Shown here: positions 3,963-61,591 of the stretch, in pieces
Numbering within the stretch: position 1 is the first letter of the stretch
How the letters are laid out: the number at the start of each line of letters is the position of its first letter
DNA from: Liolophura sinensis
Taxonomy: Eukaryota > Mollusca > Polyplacophora > Chitonida > Chitonidae
Assembly: GCF_032854445.1 (NCBI RefSeq)
Contig: NC_088298.1
Location: 18,123,976-18,187,975, forward strand
Direction of reading: 5' to 3'
DNA length: 64,000 nt
Position numbers and translations under genes: made by a program
Notes under the pieces: model-generated
Told to the model about the DNA's origin: nothing
Seen by the model: only the letters and a program-made list of their open reading frames with translations
The model's database searches: none

Positions 3963-3974
3963 TCTTAAGAACGA

Positions 3975-22159: not shown

Positions 22160-25018
22160 TCGTTGAATCACTCCCTCTGGAAATAAACCTAAACCTGGGT
22201 TGTTTTCATATGGACATTTCACATGTCCCTTTTGATAAACTGTATCTCGTGCTTTCGCAGGTGAAAACTAAGGTTTTTCTGTTAACAACACTTTGAAAAA
22301 AAAACACAGGCAAAATGAAAGTTAAGTCTGGTAAACCAGCCATTTCCACCCTGCTTATGGTCATGCGCACGAAGGCTGTAACGTTTATCAGTGGATGAAA
22401 TCGGTCAACAAATAGGGAAATCCAGTCAGATCAAAATCACGTGGCATTTTTTTTTTGAATTTTTGATTTACATACACAAATTAGTGTATTTGGCGACTCC
22501 GTTTCATGGAATTAATTGCGATAAGATGTGTGTCAGAGATTTAGGCTATTCTTATCAACAATGATCAGTCCATAGACAACTGTTGCCACAATAATATGGC
22601 CTGAAATTTGTGAAATTATTGATTTCTTTATTTATCCATTCGTTTTATTGTTGTTTATCGCGACACTGGAGGTATTTTTCCCGATACTATGGTCTTCTGT
22701 TAATGATTGAGAGAAACACAATTCCCAAGGTATTTAATAAAGCCACCGACCGTTGGCAAGGTATTGATGTATTTTCTCTCGAGCGATGTACATATCTGCA
22801 TCTTATATTGGTGGAAGATCCTTGACCTTAAACAAACTCTTGACGGCACAAAAAAAAATCATGCAAGCGAACAGCGAAATCGAGGAATTCCACAAATCCC
22901 CTGTCGATGACCGGGATAGAACTCACAGCTCGTGCGTGTGTCATAAAAATTGAAAGGTAAACATATCTGCTAACTGACCACGGCCAGCTTCTTAGAGGAT
23001 GTTTTATTCGAACCTTCCGCTTTAGTGATGAAGGGCTTGGGTTATGGGCTAACAGCCTATACCAGAAAAGAATACACGGATGCATACAACTGCATGGGGA
23101 AGAGCGTTTCGCTTAGGCATGGGTGTGCCTAACAAGTTTATAAGTAGATATGTAAAGTATGTAGATAAGTGAACGCCAACAAAGAACAAATTAGCATGGT
23201 TCATCAATCATCTCTGACGTCTTTAATTGCTTTTATTCCTCACACGCACAAAAAAAATGCGGGGAAGAGGAAAAGAGGTAAGTGATACAAAGAATTGGCA
23301 AAAACTATTTTACACATTAGACTTTATCATTTACTTATCGCTCCAAACAGCTTAGGTTTAGATTAGTAAAGTCACGTGGTGAAACCCATCCGGCATTATC
23401 GAGCATGCGTATGGCTTCACTGGAGATCTCAAAACGGCACATCCGATTAGGCTGCTCGTACAAATCTCATCTTAGAATATGCTATCCTGGAATACGCACA
23501 AAGAGAGAAAACATTTGGGTCAAATGACTCTAAACTCTGAGTTATACAACAAAGTTAATTCAAGTAAGTGAACACCAAGTGACATGACCTGATAAGCTGA
23601 GTCATGAAAGACTCATGTAAACTTTAGGAAAAACCAAGTGGGTCAACACTATAACCTGATGAATTTCATGACTGTGAGTAAAAACAAACCTAGCCTACAC
23701 GTGTGTGGCCTGGCTTGCCTTACCACAATTGTAACGGTCTTATCGGAAAAGAAGGATGGCATCTCAGTAAACCTTACCCTGCGAGGGAATTTGACAGAAA
23801 TCTCAATTTTGGCATATATACAACAAATTAAAGAACGAAATTATGATGCTAAAGACTCTCAATCTCATGTGCATGCATTGAGAGAGTTAATAACAACAAC
23901 AACAAAACTTTACTTACATTGTAAAGTACAGTTTTTCAAATTCAGTATTTCCCGACAAACCCGGCCTAATAGTTTGTTATTGCCACATGCATGTGAGCTA
24001 ATGATCTTAATGCAATGCGACTTAATCTAGGCTTGATGATGATTCTGAAGAGATCAGAGTCATTAACACTCTGCTTCATAATTGACACACTACTTCATGT
24101 AGCTATAACTTATGATGTTGATTGAAATCAAATGCTACAGTGCGAAAAATGTACACGCCATATGCAGGAATCTTCCGTATATTGTTATCCAAGTTTAAGG
24201 AAAACTTACAGTGTAAAAATTGAAACTATCCCCTGTTGGTATCGGAGGCATGACAGGGGGCTGCCGAGGATTTTATTACATTACAAGCCCACGTAGAATA
24301 TTTCTTTTAAATTGAGTGGAACAGGATAAATATCTTTAATTTCTCCACCGGCTTTGCCGTGTATCAAACCTTGAATTGAACCTTGCTTTGTATTATAGCT
24401 GTCTTTTACTTTGATAAGAACGTAAATACGACGGTACAGCCTCTTGACCCCGCAAGATCAGTTTACCGCCCTCTTCCTGAACAACAAACGTTGTATTATT
24501 TCTTGCCTTTTTCTTTTAATCAAAGCCAAGAGTCTTAATTTTATTAAACTTTCAAGATACTAAATGGTCAATTGCTTTTTATATCGTTTCTTATTTAAAG
24601 CAGTATGCTCGGGAATTTATTTGTTAGACGATAGTGATCGGTTTCACGAAAGGAATAAACCACCGATCTCTTGTTGCTTAACTTTCTGTTCGCTGGGCGA
24701 CGTACAGACTACCCTTCAAAACGATCTTGAACGAAATACACACTGCTCAAATGGCGCCACACAAGCCGTCAAACACCTATAGTCATCGATGTTCAATTAA
24801 AAATGTGAGGGAAGAAAAGTAGAAATTCCCCGTATAATGTCGGGCTTTAGTCTGTTCTTCATATGTTTTAGCGCTTTAAAGTCGAAGGCCACGCGCAGAG
24901 CCTACATCTGCATCCCCGCTGTCCAATTATCCGGTTTAACAGTGTCAAAAGTATGTGCATCAGACACTTACAACATAACGGGTAAAGAATTCATTTACCG
25001 GTACTCTACTTTGATATT
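22160..25018. other. Intergenic, downstream of the inverted innexin
   Basis: No supportable gene. A 130-codon open frame at 23638-24030 lacks an ATG at its start and has no recognisable motif. About 24950-25018 is homologous to the 3' flank of the intact innexins, so the duplicated segment extends past the stop codon. Confidence 0.45.
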
Positions 25019-26205
25019 TTAACAATCAGTAAATGTCGCGTTTAGGTTCACACAAAGAGGTGTCTTGTCCACAAAATATGGCGGCGGTTTCCCTTCAATC
25101 CCTTTGGTTTTGTACGCTGCCCAGAGTCTGGAGAGAATTTGACAGACGACGGTCTCGGAGGAGTTCTGGCCGATCAGCCAGAGCAGGTACATCCCGCCTG
25201 CCCTCAGGTAATGCTCTAAGAAGTTTTGATACTCCTCGTTCTCGTGACAAGTATCTTGGTCATGGAGTAAGCTCATATGTCTCTTTACGTACATACAGGT
25301 TCTCGGCTCAAACAGACGAGTGACGAGACAACAGATGATGTCACTGCTGCTGATAGACGATACGACGAGAGACAAGAAACCAACAAGAAGACTGATTCTC
25401 TCGAACATGTCATTGGCCGGCATATGACACTGTAATGTAAAGTGGTTTACAACTCCAAGGCGGGGAACTGAGAAACTGCAGAGTATTTTGTCTGGAAAGA
25501 AGGTTTCGTTGCTAGGCAGTTTGTTGTTCATGATTTGGTCATAAAAGTTGAAATTTACACCGAGGCATTTGTAGAGCAAGTAGACTGGCACAATAGATCC
25601 GATGAGGAAGCAAAGTTTTCCGGCAAACCGCTCAAGCCAGACATAGAGCCGGAGTGACGGCGATATTTTCATCATACATCGCCGAAAGCCTTGACTTCCT
25701 TTCATTTTCGTCCAGTCTGTACTGGAGGTCAGTTGTAAGGTACTTGATGGCTGCAAGCCTTGTCTCGTAAGATGCCGTGACACATTGGTCAGAAAGCTCG
25801 AGAATATTGCGAATGTTGACACGGAACATTTTGCAAGCCATGTTCTTAACCAATTCCGGAATGATATAGAGGACAGACAGAAAGAGAAGTCCAAATGGTG
25901 TCCATTTGTAATAGTTGGTGCGTGGCGCCGTAGGAATAGGCTCTGGAATGGGCAAGTCATCTATCGGGACATAGTACTGATTTGCAAAATAATACACCGA
26001 ATCTGAGAAATCCATCATGGATCGTGTAAAGTGCGGAGACCAACACTTTGCTGGTTCAGCAAAGTATTGTAGGTATCCAGTCACAGCGGCGAGGGAGGCC
26101 AGAAAAATGGCGAAAATGACGTGTACACGAGAAGTTGTCATTCCCATACCTGCGTGTCTTGATTCAGGGGAAGCAACTCTCTTCGGCGGTACAATTTCCC
26201 GAAAC
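25019..26205 (-). pseudogene. Innexin pseudogene 1 (8-nt deletion), inverted paralogue
   Basis: Matches the main exon of the intact innexins along its whole length: TM1 (IFLASLAAVTGYLQYF), the YYKWTPFGLLFLSVLY motif entering TM2, TM3, EL2 with both cysteines, TM4, and the C-terminal 'YLLWLIGQNSSETVV'. Compared with the intact copies 8 nt are missing near 25700 in the cytoplasmic loop (after codons for RKS). The frame breaks there and the two halves lie in different frames. The second EL1 cysteine is also a tyrosine (SVYYFANQYY). The acceptor (cttccag|GTTTCGG, phase 2) is conserved, and the first coding exon was not found. Everything else is open, so the loss looks recent, or it is an assembly error. 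Confidence 0.85.
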
Positions 26206-26885
26206 CTGGAAGAGAAGAAATATGTCATGTAGTATTTATTTTTTGAAAGGATTATTTTACGCAAATATCAATCTAGATATGTCGCATGGCGTATTGTAAA
26301 CAATTTGGAATTGTTTTCAATTTGGAGTGTTCAATTGCATAATGGCTTGAGAAGAAATTAAGCAGAAGAAATGCAGTGATGTTTGTTGCAATTTATTGAA
26401 TTCGTGTCGAAGTACTCAAAATGCTGTGCTTTCGTGACATTTGACATAGAGAAAATATGAAAATAAAGCAAGGAATCAGGGATTGGGGATGCTTAGTCCA
26501 CCAGCAGATTGCCTTTTAACGAAGAAATACCGTTTAAGAAAGACTACAGCATGGCGAGTAAACTAGCACAGCGTTTTACGTGAATGCTTACATAGTACCA
26601 AATTACGCACTCCCTAGTATAATGGCCTGCTTAGAATAAGATAAAAAATACAGTGATGCTAAATGCAATTTATTAAACGTCATTAGTAACTAACGAAGTT
26701 CGTACTGATTTACGCACACATATAGACACTTGTTGTCAGGTTTGATTTCGGAAATCACGTGCATGGAGACTGTACGTTACTTCATTTTGCATACATATAT
26801 ATTTAACAATGCCTGTATTGTCGTTGTCCTTTGTATTCTTTTTTCAAGTCTAGTATGTAGCTATAGTAAAACATGTCAACTAGAT
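26206..26885. other. Upstream flank of pseudogene 1 with a dispersed repeat
   Basis: The first bases are intron of the pseudogene. Two stretches (about 26330-26450 and 26575-26700) resemble each other and 57235-57410 (for example 'ctccctagtataatggc' and 'gcagtgatg' followed by 'tgcaatttatt'). Confidence 0.4.
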
Positions 26886-28572: not shown

Positions 28573-28832
28573 GTCTCCATGGCGCAGTTGGTTAGCCACT
28601 GTTATGGCACATGAGCCTCTCACCAATACGGTCCGTGTGAGTTCAAGCCCAGCTCATGCTGGCTTCCTCTCCGGCCATACCTGGGATGGTCTGACAGCAA
28701 CCTGCGGATGGGCGTGGTTTTCCCCCCGGGCTCTGCCCGGATTTCTCCCACCATAATGCTGGCCGCCATCGTGTAAATGAAATATTCTTGAGTACGGCGT
28801 AAAGCACCAGTCAAAATAAAATAATAAATAAA
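28573..28832 (+). repeat. SINE family A, full length
   Basis: Head 'atggcgcagttggttagcca', B box gagttcaagccc, the usual body, and tail 'acggcgtaaagcaccagtc' plus AATA repeats. A 7-bp loss is visible in the head. Confidence 0.88.
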
Positions 28833-29595
28833 ATGTTATAATTTACTTTAGACTCTTTAAAGTCTAACCAAAGTGTGAACTGATTTTTAACACAACATTA
28901 ACTTTGACTGATAACGCCTATATATAGCTGGTCATCCGGACGGAATCTATCAGGAGGGTAAATTAATGAGATTGAATGGGAAGTCAATGCCAAACAAGAT
29001 AATATACATGTACTTCCCATCTGAATGAGCTAGCATTTGCATGCGGATAACAATATGTGGCGATCCCACCAATTGCCACCCCGCATCGTCACAAAGCCGA
29101 CAGAGCAAGCTTACACAGCTTGACCCCACCCTAACCGTTAGGAATATTTTAAAGTTAAGACATTAAACGCAGGGGCAAATGATAGAGAAAAAATGAGTTA
29201 ACCTGGTTCTGGGCAACGGTCGTTTTGTGATGTAATCGTGTCCGTGTAGGAGCATTGACAACCGTGTCCTAAACTGTTCATTCTTGTTTTAACCCCGTGT
29301 CCAATTGTAGTTTCCCAGCTGTTCTTGTTTAAAGAAAAAGTACGGCTGTTTCATGCATTATTTTATACACAGGAAATATTTACTTTTGATGAATATATAA
29401 ATTACCCATGACTAATACACAGGATACTCCGATATTTTGTGTTCAGTGGAAAAGTTGTGTAACCCCTAAACACGTAGACCATGCACATTGTAATGCGATG
29501 TATCCCGATGGTTGTAAAAAATACAACCATTTTAAGTCTTGGTATCGATTGAAACAACTTCCAGACTTGAAATACTAGTAACCATGATACCGGGC
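28833..29595. other. Intergenic
   Basis: Nothing recognised. Confidence 0.45.
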
Positions 29596-35045: not shown

Positions 35046-35170
35046 GTTTTAATGCCGTAATGTGGAAACTTTGTAGATGTTTTCATCAGTAGCTAGACTG
35101 AGCATGCAGTAAGTGCTGGTATACCCTATGTTTTCAGCAGATAAGCCTAAACTGTTGGATACAGGAAAAC

Positions 35171-35475
35171 ATGGCCTCTGGTGAAGGGCAGAAGGTCAGT
35201 GCAACCAATTCAGCGTCACTGCAGAAGTGTTGATACACTATCCCTCAACCACTCCCAGTTACCCCAGAATCCTCCCCAACCCTCACCCCACCAACGACCC
35301 AGTCTCCTCTGTTCACACATCAGTCCTCTCACACGGACCCCTGTGCGGTGTGCTTGCACTACTTACCACCCGCCACTTCGATCACACAAAGGCCGTCTTT
35401 GCAGAAGTTAACACCAAGAGCAGCTACACACTGGCAAGCAGATCAACGTCCCCCTGCACAAAAGTTCAAGGATGT
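35171..35475 (+). other. Possible upstream exon of the innexin unit
   Basis: Starts with an ATG in a good context (aaaacATGG) that opens only 20 codons (MASGEGQKVSATNS...). A long C-rich stretch follows, open in two frames, up to a strong donor (AAGGAT|GTAAGT). The 20-codon frame ends in TGA in both duplicates. The stretch may be a 5' untranslated exon with a short upstream ORF. The final bases before and after the donor match the minus-strand donor at 28176. Confidence 0.3.
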
Positions 35476-35798
35476 AAGTATATTATTAATAAATTTTTGG
35501 TCTGCTCCTTTAAGTTGTTACCAAGCACAACTCTGCGTCGCAATTCCTTAACACTCTCAAGATCCACGTTACAAGGTTTCTTTCACTATAGTCACAAACT
35601 TCCATGTTAGTGAATCTACTACGGCAAACACCATACCCGATGTGGACCTCTCCGTTTGTCATCAGGGTCTAATTAAACATGCATGGTGATAAAATATCTC
35701 TATCTTAAGTCTGTCTTTTGTTGAAGTAATTTGCGCATAATCAAAATAAGCTTTGCTTATTCTCACAATATACTATGCTACAACACATAATGTTAGGT

Positions 35799-35964
35799 TT
35801 GATTTATTTCACTGATGTTTTACGCCATACTCAAGAATATTTCATTTATACGACGGCGGCCAGCTTTATGGTGGGAAGAAACCGGGCAGAGCCCGGGGAA
35901 AACCCACGGCCATCCGCAAACCTTCGGATTGCTGGGTTGCTGGCAAACCTTCCCAATTACGGCA
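35799..35964 (-). repeat. SINE family A (copy A1), head missing
   Basis: 'actgatgttttacgccatac' to 'cttcccaattacggc', with a 12-bp insertion in the body (aaaccttcggat). Its TTTA tail is 8 bp shorter than in the duplicate at 42765-42937. Confidence 0.85.
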
Positions 35965-36634
35965 ATGTTACGTTTTAAAAGTCGGCATTAACTTAACTAG
36001 TCATGCATTAGTTACCAAGCACCTACAGGAGTAATAAACTTTGGTTGTGGATCATATACGCACTTGCCTCGGTTACCAAATGCTGGCCCTTTCTAAAATC
36101 AAATTTGCTGAATTTAAAACAATCTTAAAAGTTGTTTCATTCATGTCATTATGTTATTACCACAGAAGGTTAATGTTATGGACGATAAAATGTTACGCCA
36201 GCAAAAAAATTCTGTCGGAACAAAAAAGTCATAACAAGTTCATTACATACACATGTTGCCATACACAGACATCTTGACACGGTTTAGACACTTTATTAGA
36301 ACATAACGTTATGTGTTGTGTGAGTGGGGATAGAGTAGATTGTGGGATTACAACAAAAAGGTTATGTCATCCAAGCGAGATTTCAGCGGAGGTTAAATAC
36401 TTCTAATTATCCGTCATATACGGCAGGCATGTCAGTCCGAGACGTATACAGATGTATATATTGTCCACGCTGTAATCTGGTACCAAGCCGGATGTAGCAA
36501 AGAGTTCTGTTTAACCCAGCTAGAAATAACACAGCAGAAAGTCGAGTAAACCCCAGATGGCCCTGTGGCTTGTGCCTGCTTTATTAGAGCCACGTGTTTA
36601 CAAGGTCAACTGGATTACCAAGCAGAGAAAATAA

Positions 36635-36669
36635 ATGAGGCTATTTTCGCCTTGCAAAATCAAAGAAAC
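36635..36669 (+). CDS. Predicted first coding exon of innexin A1
   Basis: ATG in a fair context (aataaATGA) followed by 11 codons plus 2 nt, ending at a consensus donor AAAC|GTGAGT. The phase (2) is exactly what the conserved acceptor at 37675/37676 needs. The 1006-nt intron is GT-AG. The joined CDS is 1233 nt (411 codons with stop). It supplies the pre-TM1 segment (MRLFSPCKIKE...) that innexins need and that the main exon alone lacks. Inferred, not proven; a possible acceptor at 36587 would make this exon 36588-36669. Confidence 0.5.
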
Positions 36670-37675
36670 GTGAGTGTCACTATAGAATTCTTAAACTCTA
36701 ATCCTGTTTATGTGAATACACAATGGAGCTTTTTAAAAGAAATAAACGTAGACGACTAAACATTGAACTACATGGCTTAATATTTAGAAACACAAACTGC
36801 GATTTATTCTAGATCAACTCAAATTCTAGTGCTCAAAACAGATGGACTTCAGGCTTTTGCATTCTTTCCATTCCAAAAGAGTGCCGATGTGAATCCGTAA
36901 CAAGAAACACGATTTCTGTACTTGATAGACACGATCAAATTTATCAGTTTCATCGTACTGTTTACCACAAGAATCCACATCTGCGGGACGCTGGTCAGTT
37001 TTACCGATAGAGGCAACAGCAGTGCCTGAGATAAACACCGGCCCTTTGGCAAGTTCTTGATTATTATTCCACATGTGACACACAGATATGCACATGATAT
37101 TGTTAAACGTAGAGTGATATTGAACAAACCGTATGACAGTGCAAGGGAGGGTCGCTCACTGCTTATTGTCAGCAATTGACGTCAAAATTGCGATGCCATA
37201 GGCATTGCTGAAATAATTTTTAAAACATAGCAGAATAAACATAGCCTATAAAGTTTTGCAAGGAATCTACCTTTTCAGTCACTGCGACTTAAAAAGAAGT
37301 TATTTTATCTAGGCCACGTATTCATCATGCAGAATGATTTTGTCTTGAAGAAATTGATCATTTGAAAATGTTCCTTCTCCCCAAATCTGAATTGTCCTGA
37401 GATCGTCTGCCTCGATTATTGAATGCGTATGTTAGGAAAAGAATTGTACTGTAAAACTGCTGACTGCCACTGTTTGCAAGAATCCGTTTTAATTTCATAC
37501 TTTATATTAGTTTCTTGATGATTCGACTCATTCCACTCTCTGTGTCAAATTTCCACATTCCCAATGAATATCAGCTAGAAAGAACAAGATTCTGGTCGCC
37601 TTTCTAACAGGCTAACATATTACAGGATCTTTAAAAAAAACTCTTTATAAAAGCAAGATTTCTTTCTTTTTACAG

Positions 37676-38873
37676 GTTTCGGAAAATCTTACCAGCGAAG
37701 AGAGCTGCTTACCTTGAATCAGGACAAGGAAGTGACGAGATGACAACTTCTCGTGCACACGTCATTTTCGCCATTCTCCTCGCCGCTCTAGCGGTTGTCA
37801 CTGGATATCTGCAGTACTTTGCTAAACCGGCTCAGTGTTGGTCACCTCCAGAATTTACACAATCTATGGTGGATTACTCAAATTCGGTATGCTATTTTTC
37901 AAATCAGTACTATGTCCCGATAGATGACTTGCCTATCCCAGAGCCCATTCCTACGGCGCCACACACCAACTATTACAAATGGACACCGTTTGGACTTCTC
38001 TTTCTGTCTGTCCTCTATGTCATTCCGGAATTGGTTAAGAACATGGCTTCTAAGGTGTTCCAACTAAATCTTGGCAATATTCTCGAGCTTTCTCACCAAA
38101 GTGTCACGGGATCTGACGAGATAAGACTTGCAGCCATCAAGCAGCTTACAGCTGACCTTCAGTACAGATTGGACGGAAACAAATGGAAGTCAAAGAAGAC
38201 AGGCTTTCTGCGATGTATTGCGAAAATATCACCGTCACTCACTCACTACATCTGGCTTGAGCAGTTTGCCGGAAAACTTTGCGTCCTCATCGGGTCTATT
38301 GTGCCAATCTACTTCCTATACAAATACCTGGGTCTAGATGTCAACTTTTATGACCAAGTCGTGAACAACAAGATGCCTAGTAACGAAACCTATTTTCCAG
38401 ACCAAATACTCTGCGATCTTGCGATTCGTCGGTTTGGAAATATCGTCCGGTTCACACTACAGTGTCATGTGCCGGCCAATGACATGTTCAAGAGAATCAG
38501 TCTTCTTGTTGGTTTCTTGGCTCTTGTTGTGTCGTCTGTCAGCAGCAGTGACGTCATCTGTTCTCTTGTCGCTCGTCTCTTTGAGCCGAGAATCTGTACA
38601 TACATCAAGAGACATATGAGCTTACTTACTGAGCAGGATACTAACCACGAAAACGAGGAGTGCCAAAACTTCACACAGCGTCACCTGGGGGCAGACGGTA
38701 AATACCTGCTCTGGCTGATCGGCCAGAGCTCCTCCGAGACCGTCGTCTGTCAAATTCTCTCCAGACTCTGGGCAACGTACAAAATCAAACGGAATGAGGA
38801 GAAACCGCCGCCATATTTTGCGGACAAGACACCTCTGTGTGGTAACCTAAACGCTGCATTTACTGACTGGTAA
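37676..38873 (+). CDS. Innexin A1 (gap-junction/hemichannel protein), main exon
   Basis: Innexins form gap junctions and non-junctional channels in the invertebrate plasma membrane. Numbering from the ATG at 37740 (377 residues to TGG-TAA): TM1 about 8-27; EL1 with C33 and C51 and a diverged 'CWSPPEFTQSM' version of the family's CW-P block; YYKW motif 78-81 (usual form YYQW); TM2 about 84-104; cytoplasmic loop to about 177; TM3 178-197; EL2 with C225 (ILCDLAIRRFGN) and C242 (FTLQCHVP); TM4 about 251-278; C-tail with 'YLLWLIGQSSSETVV'. Two cysteines per extracellular loop and four TM segments are diagnostic. A sequon N215-E-T lies in EL2. The exon opens at a pyrimidine-rich acceptor (ctttttacag|G); the 21 upstream in-frame codons plus exon 1 give 410 residues, the usual innexin size. 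No frame lesions. Confidence 0.92.
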
Positions 38874-39620
38874 AATATCAAAGTAGATTGGCGGTACATG
38901 AATTTTTTGCTCGTTATGTTGTAAAAATACGCTAACAATACCATTTAAACTCCAACAATTGGCTCATAAGACACTATATAGGCCTATTACCCTCTTATAC
39001 TTTTAATGACAGAATCATCGAGCACATCTTGGTGCTATTACTGCTCATAGTTCTCAACAGACTCAGTTGACTGCCAGATTGTCAGTACCGTTTAGGGAGA
39101 ATAACTATGGAGTCATCCTTTAGAGATATTTGCAAGCAGTCATTACATGGCATTCTAAGTATTATTTGTCATCGTCATTACATTTTATAGACTTCTATTC
39201 TGCTAGTGTAATTATTATTAGTTTTTACGGGCTTTTTTCTCTCTCTATAACAAGAGTACATGTCAGTTCTATGACCGTTAACCTCAGTGTCAGACTCAGT
39301 TCCATTTATTTTTATGTGTTTGGGACCAAAATCACGACCAAGCAACCTGACCAACTGGGTCCACTAAAGAGGCAAAAAGACTAGGTTGGGAACTACTCAC
39401 TTAATCCCAAATTTAGGATGTCGATGACAGTTAATGTCAGAAAAAAATAAAACAATCTATCGCAAATGTTAACTACATGCACTCTTCTGAATTAGTTCTA
39501 CAGCGTTATTATCACGATACACAGTTATCCATGTAAGTGATAAATACCCCGATCACTTTCAATACACAGAAACAAGATATAAAATGACACCATGATGATT
39601 CGATTTTCTGAGGACTTTAG
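38874..39620. other. 3' flank of innexin A1
   Basis: Conserved with the flank of copy A2 and, for about the first 70 bp, with pseudogene 1, so it probably includes 3' UTR. A possible polyadenylation signal AATAAA is at about 39448. No other gene. Confidence 0.5.
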
Positions 39621-39970
39621 GGACCGCTTGAGTGGTGCGCTAATGGTTAGTGCCTCTATCTCGATGTCGGGAGACCGGGGATCAAACTCGAGTCGGGTAA
39701 TACCAAAGACTTTAAAAATGATACTTGTTGCTGACTGGTTTGCCTCTCAGCACTAAGAGGTTAGGGAACATGCTCCCCTGGCCCGGTGTTAGTATAATGT
39801 GACAGAGTGGGGTGTCATGTCTGGTGTCTTTGGCATAATACTTCAGTGGCGGCAGCACTTTGACTCCATTGATTCGCCCTGTCAGAAGGAGACACAGCAT
39901 TTGTACACACACCTACTGACTCCTGGTCGTCATACGACCGAAAAATGGTTAGTCCGACGTAAAATCCCAG
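39621..39970 (+). repeat. SINE family C, full length (copy A1)
   Basis: tRNA-like head (ccgcttgagtggtgcgctaa; B-box-like ggggatcaaactc), a body with 'cagcactaagaggttaggga' and 'acttcagtggcggcagcact', and a 3' end 'gtcatacgaccgaaaaatgg' plus 'gacgtaaaatccca'. The head is distinct from family A. Other copies: 12203-12430 and 62175-62400 (reversed), fragments at 9405, 32268 and 55470. Confidence 0.7.
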
Positions 39971-40019
39971 GCATGCATCGATTCATTCTTAGCACTTTAT
40001 CGGATATATGTGTACGAGA

Positions 40020-40532
40020 TGGAGAAGGCATAAAAATTACAGTGAAAGAGCGCAAAAGGTTGTAAATATAATCTTCAATATTTTTTTTCGAATTTCTCCT
40101 TAAAGAGAAAAAGGCAGTTGAAAATATGTTTTGTATGGCTGGTATTTTGGACCAGCTCTTGGTATATATTATCTCTTTGTCATAATCTTATACATAAAGA
40201 TGCAACACATGTTTTATAAATGTATTTGCCCAAGGGTTTGATATTTTCAGCTAACAAATGTGTTGAAAATCGATTTTGATCACATTTATATTTTTGATAT
40301 ATTCATATCAATATAACAATTCAGATTAAACGCATGCGTGTGTAGATATAAAGAACAAACGTATATCCAAAGAAGTTTATTAGACAAGCATCACATTCTT
40401 GGAACACTATTATGCAAAGACGATATATATGAAGAGGTGGTCCCAAAAATGTTTTTGAAAAAAATAAAAAAAATATATTAAAGATCTGATTTACAATTAA
40501 GTTTTCAGGCTCTTTCATCTAATTTTTTTTAA
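40020..40532. mobile_element. MITE (copy A1)
   Basis: Same family as 34491-35045, in the opposite orientation. Ends are inverted repeats of each other: 'gtgaaagagcgcaaaagg' then 'ttgtaaatataatcttcaat' on the left, and the complement of 'tttacaattaagttttcagg' then 'ctctttcatcta' on the right. Interior AT-rich, non-coding. Confidence 0.65.
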
Positions 40533-41073
40533 GTATACATGAGAGGTTGATCAGTCTCCCTGATGTGACGTTAGTAAATGCTCGCCATATTGGTAAAAAG
40601 AATATATCTGCAACAAATGGAAAGTTTCACAGAACGACAACGAGTGAGTCGTCCATCGATTATTTTCAAATATCACCCGATAACAAAGCCGTGGAACATG
40701 AAAAATACTCAGGGTTGAATCCACACCACGCGTGCCATGTGCCTGGGGGTCATATCTACATTACCTGATCTGCCTTGGCAGTTAAATGCCAGTGAAATGT
40801 AAAGTAAATATGGCAAAGACACAGTGAGTGACAAATTCGGACAGAAAATATGACTAGTCAAAGGTACCAGGTTCCTTGTGAAAGCACCACAGAGCCAGAA
40901 TATATTCCACGTGTTGCCGCTGGTGACATTGTCCTGCGTGGTGCTATGTTTTCTATCCCGGCATAAAGGTCTCGCTCTATACACACCGACTCAAGACTCA
41001 CATTTGTAAAGACGTGAGATACCTTATGCCAACCTAACAACCTCTCTCTACACACACACACGCCAGACTCTCT

Positions 41074-41290
41074 GAGATATCACTGCCCGACGTACCGGCC
41101 TCTCTCTATGTGCACGGGCTCCATACCCTCAGTTCTCAAGACCAGAGATATCACTGCCCGACGTACCGGCCTCTTTCTATGAACACAGACTCCATACCCT
41201 AAATAGTCAAAGCCGGAGATATCACTGCCCAACGCAATGGCCTACCTCCATGAACACAGACGCTAGACTGTCATTAGTTAAAGCTTAAGA
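41074..41290. repeat. Minisatellite, 71-bp unit, 3 copies (copy A1)
   Basis: Units begin 'gagatatcactgcccgacgt' and contain 'actccataccct'. Three units here against six in the duplicate, which accounts for about 214 bp of the length difference between the two 7-kb units. Confidence 0.9.
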
Positions 41291-41429
41291 TAACATGTCC
41301 CGACCTCATGACCTTCACAGTCCTCTCTCTACACACCTGCTTACCTTCATTATCCTTAAAGAGTTTGTATGAGAAACACTTATGGGATGTTAACAGAAAG
41401 ATTTGTCTCTTGCACTGATCACTTCTAAT

Positions 41430-41570
41430 TTGTTTATTTACTCATTTGATTGGTGTTTTACGCCGCACTCAAGAATATTTAACTTATACGACGGCGGCCA
41501 GCATTATGGTGGGAGGAAACCGGGCAAAGCCCGGGCGAATTACACGATCATCCGCAGGTTGGTGGCAGTT
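41430..41570 (-). repeat. SINE family A (copy A1), head missing
   Basis: 'gattggtgttttacgccgca' to 'atcatccgcaggttggtggc', truncated in the body. Followed by a small inverted repeat (agttgtacta / tagtacaatt). Confidence 0.88.
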
Positions 41571-42135
41571 GTACAGTTGTACTATATACAGTTAGTACAA
41601 TTGCACTATAATAAACATCTACGTGTTTGTGGAATATTTTCACTCAATATCAACACAAAGTCATGTTTACTGGGCTATGCGTTTGTAATATGCACAGGAT
41701 TACGATATTAACATTTCATACAATTACTAAAACAGGCACATTTCTTTTTTATGAATGAAAACTGTAACAGAATTGTGTTTCGGTGTGTAAACGAATTAGG
41801 CCAACGTCCTTCAGCACTTTTGGACTAACTTGATCGCCTGGGTTGGTGTAATTCCCTCTTGTTTCTCCATTGACACGATTACATCACAAAACATCATGGT
41901 ACACAAGCCTATACACATTTTACCTCTCTACCCTCTACCTGTGTACATAATGGTTTAACTTACATTCTCACAGATATCACCCAGATAGAAAATAAATTCC
42001 CTTTTTTGACAATGCCTTTGTTTAGAGCGTTTAATTACTAGGAACCTGACTGGATGCGACGGATTATGCAGACTAGGTGCGGAGGCCGGTTTGTACAGGC
42101 TATAAGCATAGCCTGTATACAGGATACAGGAAAAC

Positions 42136-42440
42136 ATGGCCTCTGGTATAGGGCAGAATGTCAGTGCAGCCGGTTCAGCGTCACTGCACAAGTGCTGATA
42201 CACTATCCCTCAACCACTCCCAGTTACCCCAGAATCCTCCCCAACCCTCACCCCACCAACGACCCAGTCTCCTCTGTTCACACATCAGTCCTCTCACACG
42301 GACCCCTGTGCGGTGTGCTTGCACTACTTACCACCCGTCACTTCGATCACACAAAGGCCGTCTTTGCAGAAGTTGACACCAAGAGCAGCTACACACTGGC
42401 AAGCAGATCAACGTCCCCCTGCACAAAAGTTCAAGGATGT
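42136..42440 (+). other. Possible upstream exon of the innexin unit (copy A2)
   Basis: Counterpart of 35171-35475. Same short ATG-initiated frame ending in TGA (five amino-acid differences in 20 codons) and the same donor (GGAT|GTAAGT). Rapid change in the short frame argues against a conserved peptide. Confidence 0.3.
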
Positions 42441-42764
42441 AAGTATATTATTAATAAATTTTTGGTCTGCTCCTTTAAGTTGTTACCAAGCACAACTCTG
42501 CGTCGCAATTCCTTAACACTCTCAAGATCCACGTTATAAGGTTTCTTTCACTATAGTCACAAACTTCCATGTTAATGAATCTACTACGGCAAACACCATA
42601 CCCGATGTGGACCTCTCCGTTTGTCATCAGGGTCTAATTAAACATGCATGGTGATAACAAAATCTCTATCTTAAGTCTGTCTTTTGTTGAAGTAATTTGC
42701 ACATAATCAAAATAAGCTTTGCTTATTCTCACAATATACTATGCTACAACACATAATGTTAGGT

Positions 42765-42937
42765 TTGATTTATTTATTTATTTCACTGATGTTTTACGCC
42801 ATACTCAAGAATATTTCATTTATACGACGGCGGCCAGCTTTATGGTGGGAAGAAACCGGGCAGAGCCCGGGGAAAACCCAAGGCCATCCGCAAACCTTCG
42901 GATTGCTGGGTTGCTGGCAAACCTTCCCAATTACGGC
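42765..42937 (-). repeat. SINE family A (copy A2), head missing
   Basis: Duplicate of 35799-35964, with two additional TTTA units in the tail. Confidence 0.85.
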
Positions 42938-43608
42938 AATGTTACGTTTTAAAAGTCGGCATTAACTTAACTAGTCATGCATTAGTTACCAAGCACCTAC
43001 AGGAGTAATAAACTTTGGTTGTGGATCATATACGCACTTGCCTCAGTTACCAAATGCTGTCCCTTTCTAAAATCAAATTTGCTGAATTTAAAACAATCTT
43101 AAAAGTTGTTTAATTCATGTCATTATGTTATTACCACAGAAGGTTAATGTTATGGACGATAAAATGTTACGCCAGCAAAGAAAATCTGTCAGAACAAAAA
43201 AGTAATAACAAGTTCATTACATACACATGTTGCCATACACAGACATCTTGACACGGTTTAGATACTTTTTTTGAACATAACGTTATGTGTTGTGTGAGTG
43301 GGGATAGAGTAGATTGTGGGATTACAACAAAAAGGTTATGTCATCCGCGCGAGATTTCAGCGGAGGTTAAATACTTCTAATTATCCGTCATATACGGCAG
43401 GCAGGTCAGTCCGAGACGTATACAGATGTATATGTTGTCCACGCTGTAATCTGGTACCAAGCCGGATGTAGCAAAGAGTTCTGTTTAACCCAGCTAGAAA
43501 TAACACAGCAGAAAGTCGAGTAAACCCCAGATGGCCCTGTGGCTTGTGCCTGCTTTATTAGAGCCACGTGTTTACAAGGTCAACTGGATTACCAAGCAGA
43601 GAAAATAA

Positions 43609-43643
43609 ATGAGGCTATTTTCGCCTTGCAAAATCAAAGAAAC
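43609..43643 (+). CDS. Predicted first coding exon of innexin A2
   Basis: Identical to 36635-36669, including the phase-2 donor AAAC|GTGAGT. The intron 43644-44649 is also identical to its counterpart as far as I can compare. Prediction rests on phase and length fit, with no transcript evidence. Confidence 0.5.
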
Positions 43644-44649
43644 GTGAGTGTCACTATAGAATTCTTAAACTCTAATCCTGTTTATGTGAATACACAATGG
43701 AGCTTTTTAAAAGAAATAAACGTAGACGACTAAACATTGAACTACATGGCTTAATATTTAGAAACACAAACTGCGATTTATTCTAGATCAACTCAAATTC
43801 TAGTGCTCAAAACAGATGGACTTCAGGCTTTTGCATTCTTTCCATTCCAAAAGAGTGCCGATGTGAATCCGTAACAAGAAACACGATTTCTGTACTTGAT
43901 AGACACGATCAAATTTATCAGTTTCATCGTACTGTTTACCACAAGAATCCACATCTGCGGGACGCTGGTCAGTTTTACCGATAGAGGCAACAGCAGTGCC
44001 TGAGATAAACACCGGCCCTTTGGCAAGTTCTTGATTATTATTCCACATGTGACACACAGATATGCACATGATATTGTTAAACGTAGAGTGATATTGAACA
44101 AACCGTATGACAGTGCAAGGGAGGGTCGCTCACTGCTTATTGTCAGCAATTGACGTCAAAATTGCGATGCCATAGGCATTGCTGAAATAATTTTTAAAAC
44201 ATAGCAGAATAAACATAGCCTATAAAGTTTTGCAAGGAATCTACCTTTTCAGTCACTGCGACTTAAAAAGAAGTTATTTTATCTAGGCCACGTATTCATC
44301 ATGCAGAATGATTTTGTCTTGAAGAAATTGATCATTTGAAAATGTTCCTTCTCCCCAAATCTGAATTGTCCTGAGATCGTCTGCCTCGATTATTGAATGC
44401 GTATGTTAGGAAAAGAATTGTACTGTAAAACTGCTGACTGCCACTGTTTGCAAGAATCCGTTTTAATTTCATACTTTATATTAGTTTCTTGATGATTCGA
44501 CTCATTCCACTCTCTGTGTCAAATTTCCACATTCCCAATGAATATCAGCTAGAAAGAACAAGATTCTGGTCGCCTTTCTAACAGGCTAACATATTACAGG
44601 ATCTTTAAAAAAAACTCTTTATAAAAGCAAGATTTCTTTCTTTTTACAG

Positions 44650-45847
44650 GTTTCGGAAAATCTTACCAGCGAAGAGAGCTGCTTACCTTGAATCAGGACA
44701 AGGAAGTGACGAGATGACAACTTCTCGTGCACACGTCATTTTCGCCATTCTCCTCGCCGCTCTAGCGGTTGTCACTGGATATCTGCAGTACTTTGCTAAA
44801 CCGGCTCAGTGTTGGTCACCTCCAGAATTTACACAATCTATGGTGGATTACTCAAATTCGGTATGCTATTTTTCAAATCAGTACTATGTCCCGATAGATG
44901 ACTTGCCTATCCCAGAGCCCATTCCTACGGCGCCACACACCAACTATTACAAATGGACACCGTTTGGACTTCTCTTTCTGTCTGTCCTCTATGTCATTCC
45001 GGAATTGGTTAAGAACATGGCTTCTAAGGTGTTCCAACTAAATCTTGGCAATATTCTCGAGCTTTCTCACCAAAGTGTCACGGGATCTGACGAGATAAGA
45101 CTTGCAGCCATCAAGCAGCTTACAGCTGACCTTCAGTACAGATTGGACGGAAACAAATGGAAGTCAAAGAAGACAGGCTTTCTGCGATGTATTGCGAAAA
45201 TATCACCGTCACTCACTCACTACATCTGGCTTGAGCAGTTTGCCGGAAAACTTTGCGTCCTCATCGGGTCTATTGTGCCAATCTACTTCCTATACAAATA
45301 CCTGGGTCTAGATGTCAACTTTTATGACCAAGTCGTGAACAACAAGATGCCTAGCAACGAAACCTATTTTCCAGACCAAATACTCTGCGATTTTGCGATT
45401 CGTCGGTTTGGAAATATCATCCGGTTCACAGTACAGTGTCATGTGCCGGCCAATGATATGTTCAAGAGAATCAGTCTTCTTATTGGTTTCTTGGCTCTTG
45501 TTGTGTCGTCTGTCAGCAGCAGTGACGTCATCTGTTCTCTTGTCGCTCGTCTCTTTGAGCCGAGAACCTGTACATACATCAAGAGACATATGAGCTTACT
45601 TACTGAGCAGGATACTAACCACGAAAACGAGGAGTGCCAAAACTTCACAGAGCGTCACCTGGGGGCAGACGGTAAATACCTGCTCTGGCTGATCGGCCAG
45701 AGCTCCTCCGAGACCGTCGTCTGTCAAATTCTCTCCAGACTCTGGGCAGCGTACAAAACCAAATCGATTGAGGATAATCCGCCGCCATATTTTGCGGACA
45801 AGACACCTCTGTGTGGTAACCTAAACGCTGCATTTACTGACTGGTAA
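44650..45847 (+). CDS. Innexin A2 (gap-junction/hemichannel protein), main exon
   Basis: Second intact innexin (ATG 44714; 377 residues from it, 410 with the predicted first exon). Residues 1-226 are identical to A1. After that 12 residues differ: L227F, V236I, L240V, V257I, I285T, Q313E, T346A, I349T, R351S, N352I, E354D, K355N. None touches the four loop cysteines (C33, C51, C225, C242), the YYKW motif or the EL2 sequon N215-E-T. At 285, 346 and 349 A2 agrees with both pseudogenes, so A1 carries the derived residue. Same acceptor and 3' flank as A1; AATAAA at about 46424. Confidence 0.92.
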
Positions 45848-46598
45848 AATATCAAAGTAGATTGGCGGTACATGAATTTTTTGCTCGTTATGTTGTAAAA
45901 ATACGCTAACAATACCATTTAAACTCCAACAATTGGCTCATAAGACACTATATAGGCCTATTGCCCTCTTATACTTTTAATGACAGAATCATCGAGCACA
46001 TCTTGGTGCTATTACTGCTCATAGTTCTCAACAGACTCAGTTGACTGCCAGATTGTCAGTACCGTTTAGGGAGAATAACTATGGAGTCATCCTTTAGAGA
46101 TATTTGCATGCAGCCAGTGCAAACATGGCATTCTAAGTATTATTTGTCATCGTCATTATATTTTATAGACTTCTATTCTGCTAATGTAATTATTATTAGT
46201 TTTTACGGGCTTTTTTCTCTCTCTATAACAAGAATATATGTCAGTTCTATGACCGGGAACCTCAGTGTCAGGCTCAGTTCCATTTATTTTTATGTGTTTG
46301 TGACCAAAATCACGACCAAGCAACCTGACCAACTGGATCCACTAAAGAGGCAAAAAGACTAGGTTGGGAACTACTCATTGAATCCCAAATTTCGGACGTC
46401 GATGACAGCTAATGTCAGAAAAAAATAAAACAATCTATCGCAAATGTTAACTACATGCACTCTTCTGAATTAGTTCTACAGCGTTCTTATCACGATACAC
46501 AGTTATCCATGTAAGTGATAACTACCCCGATCACTTTCAATACACAGCAACAAGATATAAAACGACACCATGATGATTCGATTTTCTAAGGACTTTAG

Positions 46599-46949
46599 GG
46601 ACCGCTTGAGTGGTGCACTAATGATTAGTGCCTCTACCACGATGTCGGGAGACCGGGGATCAAACTCGAGTCGGGTAATACCAAAGACTTTAAAAATGAT
46701 ACTTGTTGCTGACTGGTTTGCCTCTCAGCACTAAGAGGTTAGGGAACATGCTCCGCTGGCTCGGTGTTAGGATAATGTGACAGAGTAGGGTGTCATGTCC
46801 GGTGTCTTTGGCATAATACTTCAGTGGCGGCAGCACTTTGACTCCATTGATTCGCCCTGTCAGAAGGAGACACAGCATTTGTACACACACCTACTGACTC
46901 CTGGTCGTCATACGACCGAAAAATGGTTAGTCCGACGTAAAATCCCAGG
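46599..46949 (+). repeat. SINE family C, full length (copy A2)
   Basis: Duplicate of 39621-39970 with scattered substitutions; it arrived before the segment was duplicated. Confidence 0.7.
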
Positions 46950-46998
46950 CATGCATCGATTCATTCTAAGCACTTTATCGGATATATGTGTACGAGAT

Positions 46999-47500
46999 GG
47001 AGAAATTATACTGAAATAGCGCAAAAGGTTGTAAATATGATCTTCAATATTTTTTTTCGAATTTCTCCTTAAAGAGAAAAAGGCAGTTGAAAATATGTTT
47101 TGTATGGCGTTTATTTTGGACCAGCTATTGCTATATATTATCTCTATGTCATAATCTTATACATAAAGATGCAACACATGTTTAATAAATGTATTTGCCC
47201 AAGGGTTTGATATTTTCAGCTAACAAATGTGTGGAAAATCGATTTTGATCACATTTATATTTTTGATATATTCATAAATATTATAATAATTCAGATTAAA
47301 GCATGCGTGTGTAGATATAAAGAACAAACGTATATCCAAAGAAGTTTATTAGACACGCATCACATTCTTGGAACACTATTATGCAAAGACGATATATATG
47401 AACGGGTGGTCCCAAAAATGTTTTTGAAAAAATAAAAAAAAATTATTAAAGATCTGATTTACAATTAAGTTTTCAGGCTCTTTCATCTAATTTTTTTTAA
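46999..47500. mobile_element. MITE (copy A2)
   Basis: Duplicate of 40020-40532. The left terminal repeat is slightly eroded (ctgaaatagcgcaaaaggtt). Confidence 0.65.
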
Positions 47501-48041
47501 GTATACATGAGAGGTTGATCAGTCTCCTTGACGTGACGTTAGTAAATGCTTGCCATATTGGTAAAAAGAATATATCTGCAACAAATGGAAAGTTTCACAG
47601 AACGACAACGAGTGAGTTGTCCATCGATTATTTTCAAAAATCACCCGATAACAAAGCCGTGGAACATGAAAAATACTCAGGGTTGAATCCACACCACGCG
47701 TGCCATGTGCCTGGGGGTCATATCTACATTACCTGATCTGCCTTGGCAGTTAAATGCCAGTGAAATGTAAAGTAAATATGGCAAAGACACAGTGAGTGAC
47801 AAATTCGGACAGAAAATATGACTAGTCAAAGGTACCAGGTTCCTTGTGAAAGCACCACAGAGCCAGAATATATTCCACGTGTTGCCGCTGGTGACATTGT
47901 CCTGCGTGGTGCTATGTTTTCTATCCCGGCATAAAGGTCTCGCTCTATACACACCGACTCAAGACTCACATTTGTGAAGACGTGAGATACCTTATGCCAA
48001 CCTAACAACCTCTCTCTACACACACACACGCCAGACTCTCT

Positions 48042-48465
48042 GAGATATCACTGCCCGACCTACCGGCCTCTCTCTATGCGCACGGACTCCATACCCTCAG
48101 TTCTCAAGACCAGAGATATCACTGCCCGGCGTACCGGCCTCTTTCTATGAACACAGACTCCATACCCTAAATAGTCAAAGCCGGAGATATCACTGCCCGA
48201 CACAACGGCCTCTCTCTATGCGCACGGACTCCATACCCTCAGTTCTCAAGACCAGAGATATCACTGCCCGACGTACAGGCCTCTCTCTATGAACACAGAC
48301 TCCATACCCTCACTACTCAAGACCAGAGATATCACTGCCCGACGTACCGGCCTCTCTCTATAAACACAGACTCCATACCCTAAATAAGCCGGAGATATCA
48401 CTGCCCAACTCAACGGCCTACCTCCATGAACACAGACGCTAGACTGTCATTAGTTAAAGCGTAAG
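48042..48465. repeat. Minisatellite, 71-bp unit, 6 copies (copy A2)
   Basis: Six units beginning 'gagatatcactgcccgac'. The fifth is shortened by about 5 bp. Units one, two and the last correspond to the three units of copy A1; the middle three are extra. Confidence 0.9.
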
Positions 48466-48611
48466 ATAACATGTCCCGACCTCATGACCTTCACTGTTCT
48501 CTCTCTACACACCTGCCTGCCTTTTTCATTATTCTTAAAGAGTTTGTATCAGAAACACTAAAGGGATGTCAACAGAAAGATCTGTCTCTTGCACTGATCA
48601 CTTCTAATTTG

Positions 48612-48750
48612 TTTATTTACTCATTTGATTGGTGTTTTACGCCGCACTCAAGAATATTTAACTTATACGACGGCGGCCAGCATTATGGTGGGAGGAAACC
48701 GGGCAAAGCCCGGGCGAATTACACGATCATCCGCAGGTTGGTGACAGTTG
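48612..48750 (-). repeat. SINE family A (copy A2), head missing
   Basis: Duplicate of 41430-41570. Confidence 0.88.
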
Positions 48751-49223
48751 TACAGTTGTACTATATACAGTTAGTACAATGGCACTATAATAAACATCTA
48801 CGTGTTTGTGGAATATTTTCACTTAATATCAACACAAAGTCATGTTTACTGGGCTATGCGTTTGTAATATGCACAGGATTACGATATTAACATTTCACAC
48901 AATTACTAAAACAGGCACATTGCTTTTTTATGAATGAAAAGTGTAACAGAAATGTGTTTCGGTGTGTAAACGAGTTAGGCCAACGTCCGTCAGCATTTTT
49001 GGACTAACTTGATCGCCTGGGTTGGTGTAATTCCCTCTTGTTTCTCCATTGACACGATTACAAAACATCATGGTACACAAACAGATACACATTTTACCTC
49101 TCTACCCTCTACCTGTGTACATAATGGTTTAACTTACATTCTCACATATATCACCCAGATAGAAAATAAATTCCCTTTTTTGACAATGCCTTTGTTTAGA
49201 GCGTTTAATTACTAGGAACCTGA

Positions 49224-50070
49224 CTGGATGCGGCGGATTATGCAGACTAGGTGCGGAGGCCGGTTTATAAAGGCTATGTGCAGCGGTGGGTTTATACTGA
49301 CGAAATGCATCGGCCGATTTATGCAGATTAGGCACGGCGGTTTGTATAGAGCTGCACCGGCGTATTGATAGAGACTAGGTGCATAGACTGTTTTATGCAG
49401 ATTAGGCACTTTGTCTTACGCAAACTAGGTGCTGCTTCCGGTTTATGTAGGTTAGATGCTGCGGCCGGTTTACACAGGATAGGTGGCCGGTTTATACAGA
49501 TTACGCACCGTGGTTTATTTAAACTAAGTTCAGCGGCCGGTTTATTCAGATTAGCCACTATGTTTTATGCAAACTAGGTGATGCGCTTGGTTTATGATAG
49601 CTATGTGCAAAAGTAGGTTAAAGCAGACTAGGGTTAGCGACCTGTTTATGCAAACTAAGTGTGGCGGCCGTTTTATACAGGTTAGGTTAGGTTAGGTTTA
49701 TGCAGAATGGGCACAGACTGTGCAGCAATTGGTTTATGCAGACTATAAGCAGAATGTGCAGCGACTGGTTTATGCAGACTAGGAGCACCGGCCGGTTTAT
49801 GCACTCTAGCTGCACCAGCGGGCTTATACAGGTTAGGTGAAGCGAGCGGTTTATGCAGACCAGATGCTTTTTCCGGATTATGCAGACTACATGCATCGGT
49901 TGCTTTATGCTGATTAAGTGCGGCGGCCGGTGTACGCGCATTAGGCATTGTGGTTTATGCAGACTATGAGCGGCAACCGGTTTATACAGACTATTTGCGT
50001 CGGCCGGTTTATGCGGATTAGGCACTTTGGTTTATGCAGACTATGTGCGGCGACCAGTTTATGCAGACTA
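49224..50070. repeat. Minisatellite, ~28-bp unit, ~30 copies
   Basis: Degenerate units around 'ccggtttatgcagactaggt' plus 'gcggcg'. It begins inside the right end of duplication copy A2, and two units also sit at the A1/A2 junction. Frames through it yield repetitive peptides (SLHKPAAAP-like on minus) that I do not consider genes. The 'ttaggttaggttagg' at 49682 is a local variation, not telomere. Confidence 0.9.
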
Positions 50071-51040: not shown

Positions 51041-51306
51041 AACGTTGGTCATTCAAGGTTGAAGCGAAAAGTGCAAGCTGCATGTCGTAGTATGACATGG
51101 TACCCAAGGAACCAAGGCAATTAAGGGAACTTTTCAAATTACTAAACATTAACAAGGACTTGATTGTGTTATTTTCGAAATGTTTGATTCTCCGTATCAA
51201 ATTTCCACTTTCCCAATGAAAGTCCGTCGAAGAGAATAAGATTCCCCGCAATATTATAAGAGATTCCAAAAACTCTATATAAACGCAAGATTTCTTCTCT
51301 CTATAG

Positions 51307-52382
51307 GTTTCGGGAAATTTTACCAGCGAAGAGAGTTATCTCCCGTGAATCAGGACACCGAAGTGACGAAATGGTAACTTCTCGCGTACATTTTCACTAT
51401 TTTGCTCGCCGTCCCAGCAGTTATCACTGGATATCTGCAGTACTTTGCTAAACCGGTTCAGTGTTGGTCACCTCCAGAATTTACACAATCCATGGTGGAT
51501 ATCTCTAATTAGGTGTGCTTTCAGATCAGTACTATATTATCCCCATAAATAACATACCTATCCCAGGACCCATTCCTACGGCGCCACACACCAACTAATA
51601 GACACCGTTTGAACTTCTCTTTCTGTCTGTCCTCTATGTCATTCCGGAATTGGTTAAGAAAATGGCTTCTAAAATGTTCAGTGTCAACCTTCCCAATATT
51701 TTGGAGCGTTCTGACCAATGTGTCACGTCATCTTACGAGACAAGCAGCTTACCGCTGACCTTCAGTACAGACTGGACGAAAACGAAAGGATATCAACGGA
51801 GACAGGCTTTCGGCGATGTATGATGAAAATATCGCCATCACTCCCACTCTATGTCTGGCTTGAGCGGTTTGCCGGAAAACTTTGCTTCCTCGTCGGATCT
51901 TGTGTGGCAGTCTACTTGCTCTACAAATACCTGGGTCTAGATTTCAACTTTTATGACCAAATCTTGAACAACGAGCTGACATGTTCGAGAGAATCAGTCT
52001 TCTTGTTGGTTTCTTGGCTTTCGTCGTATCGTCTGTCAGCAGCAGTGACTTCATCTGTTGTCTCGTCGCTCGTCTGTTTGAGCCGAGAACCTGTACGTAC
52101 GTCAAGAAACATATGAGTTTTGTCAATGACCAAGATACTAACCTCGACGACGAGGAGTACCAAAACTTCACAGAGCGTTACCTAAGGGCAGATGGGATGT
52201 ACCTGCTCTGGCTGATCGGCCAGAACTCCTCCGACACCGTCGTCTGTCAGGTTCTCCTCAGACTCTGGGCAGCGTACAAAACCAAACGGATTGAGGAGAA
52301 ACCCGCACTAAAACCGCCGCCATATTTTGTTGACGATACACCTCTCTGTGGAAAAATGAATGATGGTTTTACCGACTGTTGA
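51307..52382 (+). pseudogene. Innexin pseudogene 4, multiply damaged
   Basis: Retains the phase-2 acceptor (ctctatag|GTTTCGG) and the innexin order. It carries a 5-nt deletion just after the ATG at 51371, in-frame stops in EL1, a small deletion at the YYKW motif (about 51597), a 16-nt deletion near 51746, and a ~106-nt deletion near 51977 that removes both EL2 cysteines and the sequon. The last 134 codons (from TM4, ISLLVGFLAFVVSSVSSSD, to FTDC-stop) are again open, with four extra codons before PPPYF. Intron sequence from about 51180 also matches the intact copies. It cannot encode a channel. Confidence 0.9.
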
Positions 52383-55562: not shown

Positions 55563-55770
55563 GGGGCCTCCGTGGCTCAGTCGGTTAGCGCGCTAGCGCA
55601 GCGTAATGACCCAGAAGCCTCTCACCAATGCGGTCGCTGTGAGTTCAAGTCCAGCTCATGCTGGCTTACTCTCCGGCCGTAAGTGGGAAGGTCTGCAGCA
55701 ACCTGCTGATGGTTGTGGATTTCCCCTTGGATCTGTCCGGTTTCGTCCCACCATAATGGCAGCCGTCTTA
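55563..55770 (+). repeat. SINE family A, 3'-truncated
   Basis: Near-consensus head (ggcctccgtggctcagtcgg; B box gagttcaagtcc) and body, breaking off at 'ggcagccgtc' without tail. Confidence 0.88.
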
Positions 55771-60830: not shown

Positions 60831-60834
60831 AGAG

Positions 60835-61240
60835 TGCTATTTCTAATTTCACAAAGAAACTGCATCTACACGAATATTTTATGATATTAAAAATGATGAC
60901 ATTTCAGTGGTAAAAAAAAGAAGGGTATTTTCACCCAAAATTCAGAACCCATGACTCAAGCATATTTATAGTCTTCACAAATCATATTCCTTACAAGGTA
61001 CTAAGAAAAGGAAACAGGTAAAAAGCAATCTTAATAACAATCAAAGGGGTGCTCTGAAACATTTACAAGACAGAACGAACATAATGACAGAGAAACCTGA
61101 CAAAGGTTCTACTGTAGTTTTAATGGATAAAGACTACTATGAAAGCAAAATTTTAAACATGTACCAAATATATACTATGAAACAATATCCTGATGTCATA
61201 AAGCATATTTTGAGTGTATGTATACTTACTTCAAAACATA
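60835..61240 (+). pseudogene. Decayed Penelope-like reverse-transcriptase fragment
   Basis: Read in two frames, this gives the order typical of the start of Penelope-like element RTs: 'SNFTKKLHLHEYF', then 'VVKKRRVFSPKIQNP', then 'NNNQRGALKHLQ' and 'KPDKGSTVVLMDKDYYES'. The D-K-G-x-x-V-V-x-M-D-K-x-x-Y block is the family's N-terminal RT hallmark. A frameshift at about 60885 and a stop at about 60955 break it, and the catalytic part of the RT is absent. A remnant only. Confidence 0.6.
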
Positions 61241-61395
61241 TTTTGAAAGATATTACTTTCATTTATGGCTGAATTTCACTTACATCATTACGTCTTATAA
61301 CTGGAAAACTATTTTTTGTTATTCGCATTGAAAGTTGTATAAAGCAGTAAAATTATTAATTAAACTTTTCATCTAATTTTAAAGCTTTACCTTTT

Positions 61396-61417
61396 ATATC
61401 GTGTATATACACGATAT
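61396..61417. repeat. Perfect 22-bp palindrome
   Basis: atatcgtgtat followed at once by its complement. It could form a hairpin or bind a dimeric protein; no context decides. Confidence 0.6.
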
Positions 61418-61591
61418 CGTGTAAGCATTCAAACCTGTCAGGCCCTTCATGAACATGTTTTGTTGCTGAAGTTTTCGATTTTTGTTCAATTTGCACTACA
61501 TACCACGTCTTGTGGCAGCAAAATAGTAATAAAATAACGTTTCTAGTGAAAGAGCTATCCAATGTAATCAAAATAAATACCTTTATAAATG

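Follow-up and report, generated by a model that had tools for sequence, protein, structure and literature searches.

The two tandemly arranged innexin units of the polyplacophoran mollusc Liolophura sinensis share a stretch of 1,920 bp without a single difference, set between flanks that have diverged by 2 to 3%. We consider it probable, at roughly 80%, that a true head-to-tail duplication of 7 kb, now about 3% diverged, was followed by recent interlocus gene conversion across this tract. The window in which both units lie is a 64,000-nucleotide stretch of contig NC_088298.1 with no N anywhere, and all positions given here are those of the window. The units, delimited by self-BLAST and global alignment, abut and are about 7 kb each, and the tract was delimited by exact string identity, for the unit 1 copy together with the best segmentation by the Bayesian information criterion (BIC):

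35157 to 42104, plus strand: tandem unit 1 (u1), span of clear homology
42122 to 49278, plus strand: tandem unit 2 (u2)
36461 to 38380, no strand assigned: identical tract, unit 1 copy
43435 to 45354, no strand assigned: identical tract, unit 2 copy

Direct string comparison of 36461-38380 with 43435-45354, at an offset of 6,974, returned 1,920 matches in 1,920 bases with no substitution and no indel, exactly as the initial annotation had claimed. That annotation had proposed an alignment of 35145-42104 with 42105-49280 as a check. This global alignment contains 148 substitutions and 12 gap runs; all of them lie outside the tract, whose flanks are 2-3% diverged. The largest gap between the units (208 bp) falls within a 71-bp tandem repeat present in about 2.6 copies in unit 1 and about 5.6 in unit 2. 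The differences closest to the tract are A/G at 36460 and T/C at 38381, the same positions and letters at which an abrupt change had been noted. The older divergence that interlocus conversion leaves on both sides of a converted stretch is kept in both flanks here: at clearly homologous positions, 29 of 1,304 sites differ on the left (2.2%; 35157-36460) and 110 of 3,706 on the right (3.0%; 38381-42102), two values that do not differ significantly (p = 0.17). Counted from 35145, the left flank has 37 differences in 1,316 sites, with the surplus at the poorly aligned edge of the unit. The coding sequence to the right of the tract (38381-38873) differs at 15 of 493 positions. These counts bear out the earlier estimates of about 30 differences in the left-hand 1.3 kb and about 16 in the 493 bp of coding sequence.

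Divergence across the unit is not uniform, a point on which the original observation also held up. When models of one to eight segments were compared by likelihood, using substitutions only, the best BIC was that of three segments with breaks at 36460/36461 and 38380/38381 (1312.8, against 1315.7 for four segments and 1370.8 for one). With all 160 events placed at random, each gap run counting as one event, the longest clean run had a mean of 241 and a maximum of 666, and none of 20,000 permutations reached 1,920; a Fisher test of the tract against the rest gave p = 2e-20. By both tests, which assume evenly spread mutations, the run of identity lies beyond chance given the divergence of the flanks, as is characteristic of interlocus conversion. 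Conversion itself may have stopped a few tens of bases short of the limits of the difference-free span. The next longest identical run that the units share covers 336 bp at 40672-41007 (p = 0.003 by permutation inside the right flank). It may be a further, small conversion tract, but an extra segment for it is not called for by BIC.

The same pattern could in principle arise without any transfer between loci. If the duplication were very young, or if two haplotypes had been wrongly laid in tandem, the 3% would be old heterozygosity and the tract a segment in which the two haplotypes share a recent common ancestor. We simulated this situation with a simple pairwise coalescent with recombination (theta 0.02-0.03; 4,000 trials for each of eight parameter sets) and counted windows of equal size with 110-170 differences. 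From 5 of 3,350 (0.15%) to 27 of 321 (8.4%) of the simulated windows had an internal run that reached or exceeded 1,920 bp, so that under this model the frequency would be small but not negligible. Precedent exists as well: in the part of PMC9516828 consulted, false duplications in older vertebrate assemblies are described as arising mostly from divergent haplotypes, some of them joined free of gaps, and as being most often, though not always, flanked by an assembly gap between the copies. The flanks here are nevertheless near-uniform rather than patchy, a pattern that a mosaic of alleles would not be expected to favor. The join between the units is also not a plain one, as it is spanned by a perfect inverted repeat:

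42094 to 42117, no strand assigned: inverted repeat across the u1/u2 junction, with perfectly matching 10-bp arms and a 4-nt loop

The left arm of this repeat makes up the final clear part of unit 1. Before unit 2 clearly begins there are 17 more bases (42105-42121), and the right arm lies among them. At the far edges of the units, the corresponding letters are one base off the left arm and several off the right arm. Outside one AT microsatellite, the window holds two such hairpins, one of them at the junction, and 10 first-order Markov sequences of 64 kb gave an expected mean of 0.3. Divergence is also raised over the 74 clear bases with which the units begin (8 of 74 differ; uncorrected p = 0.001), with no separate segment called for by BIC. 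We read the inverted repeat and the raised divergence at the edge, both noticed after the fact, as a trace of template switching or error-prone repair, either at the duplication or later. As in available accounts of template-switch mutation at quasipalindromes, a perfect short inverted repeat is involved, placed here at the junction; the far unit edges do not match both arms and, unlike in those accounts, we have a single instance, noted in retrospect, for which the mechanism is proposed. The inverted repeat suggests that the tandem duplication is real and that the join is present in the DNA, not produced by assembler overlap. On this evidence we regard an allelic origin of the pattern as unlikely.

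Less likely again is an artefact of assembly or polishing, in which one consensus would have been written for both gene cores and the real differences lost. Assemblers are known to collapse paralogues, and our analysis rests on one assembled sequence. Such a loss would have to stop precisely where 2-3% divergence persists on both sides, and long reads of usual length would exceed the tract and be expected to anchor in either flank. The allelic and the artefactual readings are both disfavored, and we prefer conversion between two real loci.

The right ends of both units match a 27-bp minisatellite whose consensus was taken from the array after unit 2 (none of 1,000 random stretches scored as well in either case), and the end of unit 1 resembles the array that runs on after unit 2. 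The idea that both ends of a unit lie in this minisatellite fails on the left, where 123 of 1,000 random stretches score equally. A separate 26-bp minisatellite of about 50 copies occupies 59502-60817, where GC skew is strong (-0.33 in 60001-62000). Elsewhere in the window a dispersed repeat, short interspersed or MITE-like, occurs in both orientations. It is about 200-270 bp long, and its copies are about 76-90% identical; the following copies are accompanied by others:

3701 to 3963: dispersed element
10562 to 10816: dispersed element
28601 to 28833: dispersed element
55564 to 55758: dispersed element
61597 to 61806: dispersed element
62724 to 62997: dispersed element

An Rfam search gave no match at gathering thresholds, and a scan of viral contigs returned no relatives.

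The position of the tract relative to the innexin genes follows from a gene model:

36635 to 36669, plus strand: predicted coding exon 1 of innexin u1, with an ATG, a GT donor at 36670 and matching phase
36670 to 37675, plus strand: predicted intron of innexin u1, entirely within the tract, with donor GTGAGT and acceptor TTTTTACAG
37676 to 38873, plus strand: main coding exon of innexin u1, from hydropathy and Pfam PF00876 (1.1e-36 for ORF 37740-38873)
44650 to 45847, plus strand: main coding exon of innexin u2, from Pfam PF00876 (2.5e-38 for ORF 44714-45847)

The 377-amino-acid ORFs of both units match PF00876 (Innexin) across residues 11-347, and the sole solved relative at E up to 0.001 is Innexin-6, which we take to be a C. 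elegans protein (1.9e-11 over residues 8-99). The reading frame is open in the 5' direction to the acceptor ending at 37675 and joins the 35-nt candidate exon in phase, giving a predicted protein of 410 amino acids. By hydropathy there are four membrane segments, near residues 39-57, 114-135, 209-231 and 279-313. On this model the tract comprises 174 bp of 5' flank, the predicted 35-bp exon 1, the intron (1,006 bp) and the first 705 bp of the main exon, and its 3' limit falls inside codon 247, at the start of extracellular loop 2. The model thereby arrives at the placement first proposed for the tract (exon 1, intron and the main exon to the start of loop 2), with exon 1 standing as a prediction.

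Each extracellular loop of the predicted protein has two cysteines (C66 and C84; C258 and C275). The motif P-X-X-X-W is missing at the second membrane segment, where u1 has PELVK at residues 129-133; the only P-X-X-X-W is at residue 63 in loop 1, and YYKW occurs at 111. We read u1 as a divergent innexin, P-X-X-X-W being typical of described members and lying outside the Pfam definition. The innexins of Limax valentianus, as presented in the consulted sections of PMC8049302, likewise have four hydrophobic segments and two cysteines per extracellular loop. The cysteine spacing is similar, with 66/84 and 258/275 here and 56/74 and 262/279 in Limax innexin 1, whereas the Limax innexins carry P-X-X-X-W around the second membrane segment in place of PELVK. 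A NET sequon at residue 248, in extracellular loop 2, is a possible N-glycosylation site.

The tract covers most of the innexin coding region, and one might suppose that selective constraint or a low mutation rate has simply held it identical. Two further innexin copies in the window serve as outgroups that bear on this explanation:

24968 to 26221, minus strand: innexin copy R, 84% identical to u1 and u2, frame broken by an 8-bp deletion; outgroup
51268 to 52376, plus strand: innexin copy psi, degenerate, in which several indels break the frame and about 104 bp are deleted; second outgroup

Compared with R, the coding part of the tract differs at 104 of 694 positions (15.0%), and the coding sequence after the tract differs at 78 of 493 in u1 (15.8%) and 75 of 493 in u2 (15.2%). 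Against psi, the coding part of the tract differs at 96 of 667 positions (14.4%), like the coding part after it. The outgroup comparisons show that the coding part of the tract evolves at a normal rate, and its identity between u1 and u2 therefore needs a recent cause. Moreover, none of the 116 fourfold sites in the predicted coding sequence of the tract has changed between the units, nor has any site of the predicted 1-kb intron. In the sequence preceding the main exon, psi aligns with two pieces, one of 57 bp (82% identity) and one of 25 bp (92%), both close to the 3' end of the intron. The same upstream region gave no aligned piece with R at E up to 0.01, and the self-BLAST match to R starts 18 bp before the main exon. 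The distance from R, the fourfold sites and the predicted intron together indicate that the identity does not come from purifying selection, as interlocus conversion requires. We reject constraint on the outgroup comparison and hold it to be extremely improbable.

The deletion in psi begins near the match to 38376, within about 6 bp of the 3' limit of the tract at 38380/38381. This nearness is probably a coincidence and possibly reflects a common fragile point.

From codon 247 on, 14 codons differ between u1 and u2, 12 of them with a changed amino acid, and 13 of the 15 substitutions sit in amino-acid-changing codons. The corresponding dN and dS are 0.035 and 0.019, values drawn from only 15 substitutions. 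Polarized with R and psi, 8 of the 15 differences fall on u1, 6 on u2 and 1 is unclear; three of the u1 changes are polarized on R alone and one of the u2 changes on psi alone. Six of the 15 lie within 20 bp of the C-terminal tail (38785-38804), 2 of them derived in u1 and 4 in u2. That split leaves conversion from R or psi unsupported as the source of this cluster.

The sharp breaks, the similar flanks, the lack of any sign of constraint and the structure of the junction all support recent gene conversion, the explanation originally put forward for the tract. We propose that a head-to-tail duplication would have made two 7-kb units, which afterwards diverged by about 3%. One unit would then have suffered a break within or close to its innexin gene, probably repaired by copying about 1.9 kb from the neighboring unit, in either direction, which erased the differences that had accumulated. 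Synthesis-dependent strand annealing or a non-crossover double Holliday junction could be the pathway. We infer a single non-reciprocal transfer, this kind of repair and its recency from the pattern of differences; several overlapping events would give the same appearance. The 95% upper limit on divergence in the tract is 0.16% (0 of 1,920), against 2.8% outside, and the conversion is accordingly at most about 6% as old as the divergence of the flanks, if rates are equal.

Work on other gene pairs allows the length of the tract to be judged. Among 7,829 duplicate pairs of C. elegans, the portion of the review PMC3966223 examined gives conversion tracts of 12-2,958 bp, with surviving tracts aggregating towards 50-200 nucleotides, and states that tracts can include introns and that long ones are possibly several short ones, fixed one after another. 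A mean tract length of the order of 10 to 100 bp is given in another review, PMC3924818. At 1,920 bp, the tract is inside the C. elegans range and above the usual 50-200 nucleotides, a length that counts against our explanation. The pairs col-12/col-13 and fog-2/ftr-1 of C. elegans, as described in PMC3966223, likewise show partial raised identity in neighboring direct repeats beside diverged sequence, with introns included in some; unlike those cases, ours is one perfect tract of 1.92 kb known from one sequence. For conversion between innexins, we found no paper in the open PMC library, judged by titles and the beginnings of abstracts.

It is conceivable, if quite unlikely, that repeated conversion homogenizes the two innexins along their upstream side and over their first 60%, from the N-terminus to the start of loop 2, and that the rest of loop 2, the fourth membrane segment and the tail diversify. 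The pair would then have common expression and most of the pore in common, and differ in docking or regulation. Gene conversion is a known and common process in gene clusters, and this tract is long yet ordinary in kind. Our findings leave general ideas unchanged; what they offer is a clean example in which a long conversion tract is sharply bounded and has two degenerate relatives nearby. For the history of the family, they mean that an age estimate based on the first 60% of the gene makes this innexin pair look too young.
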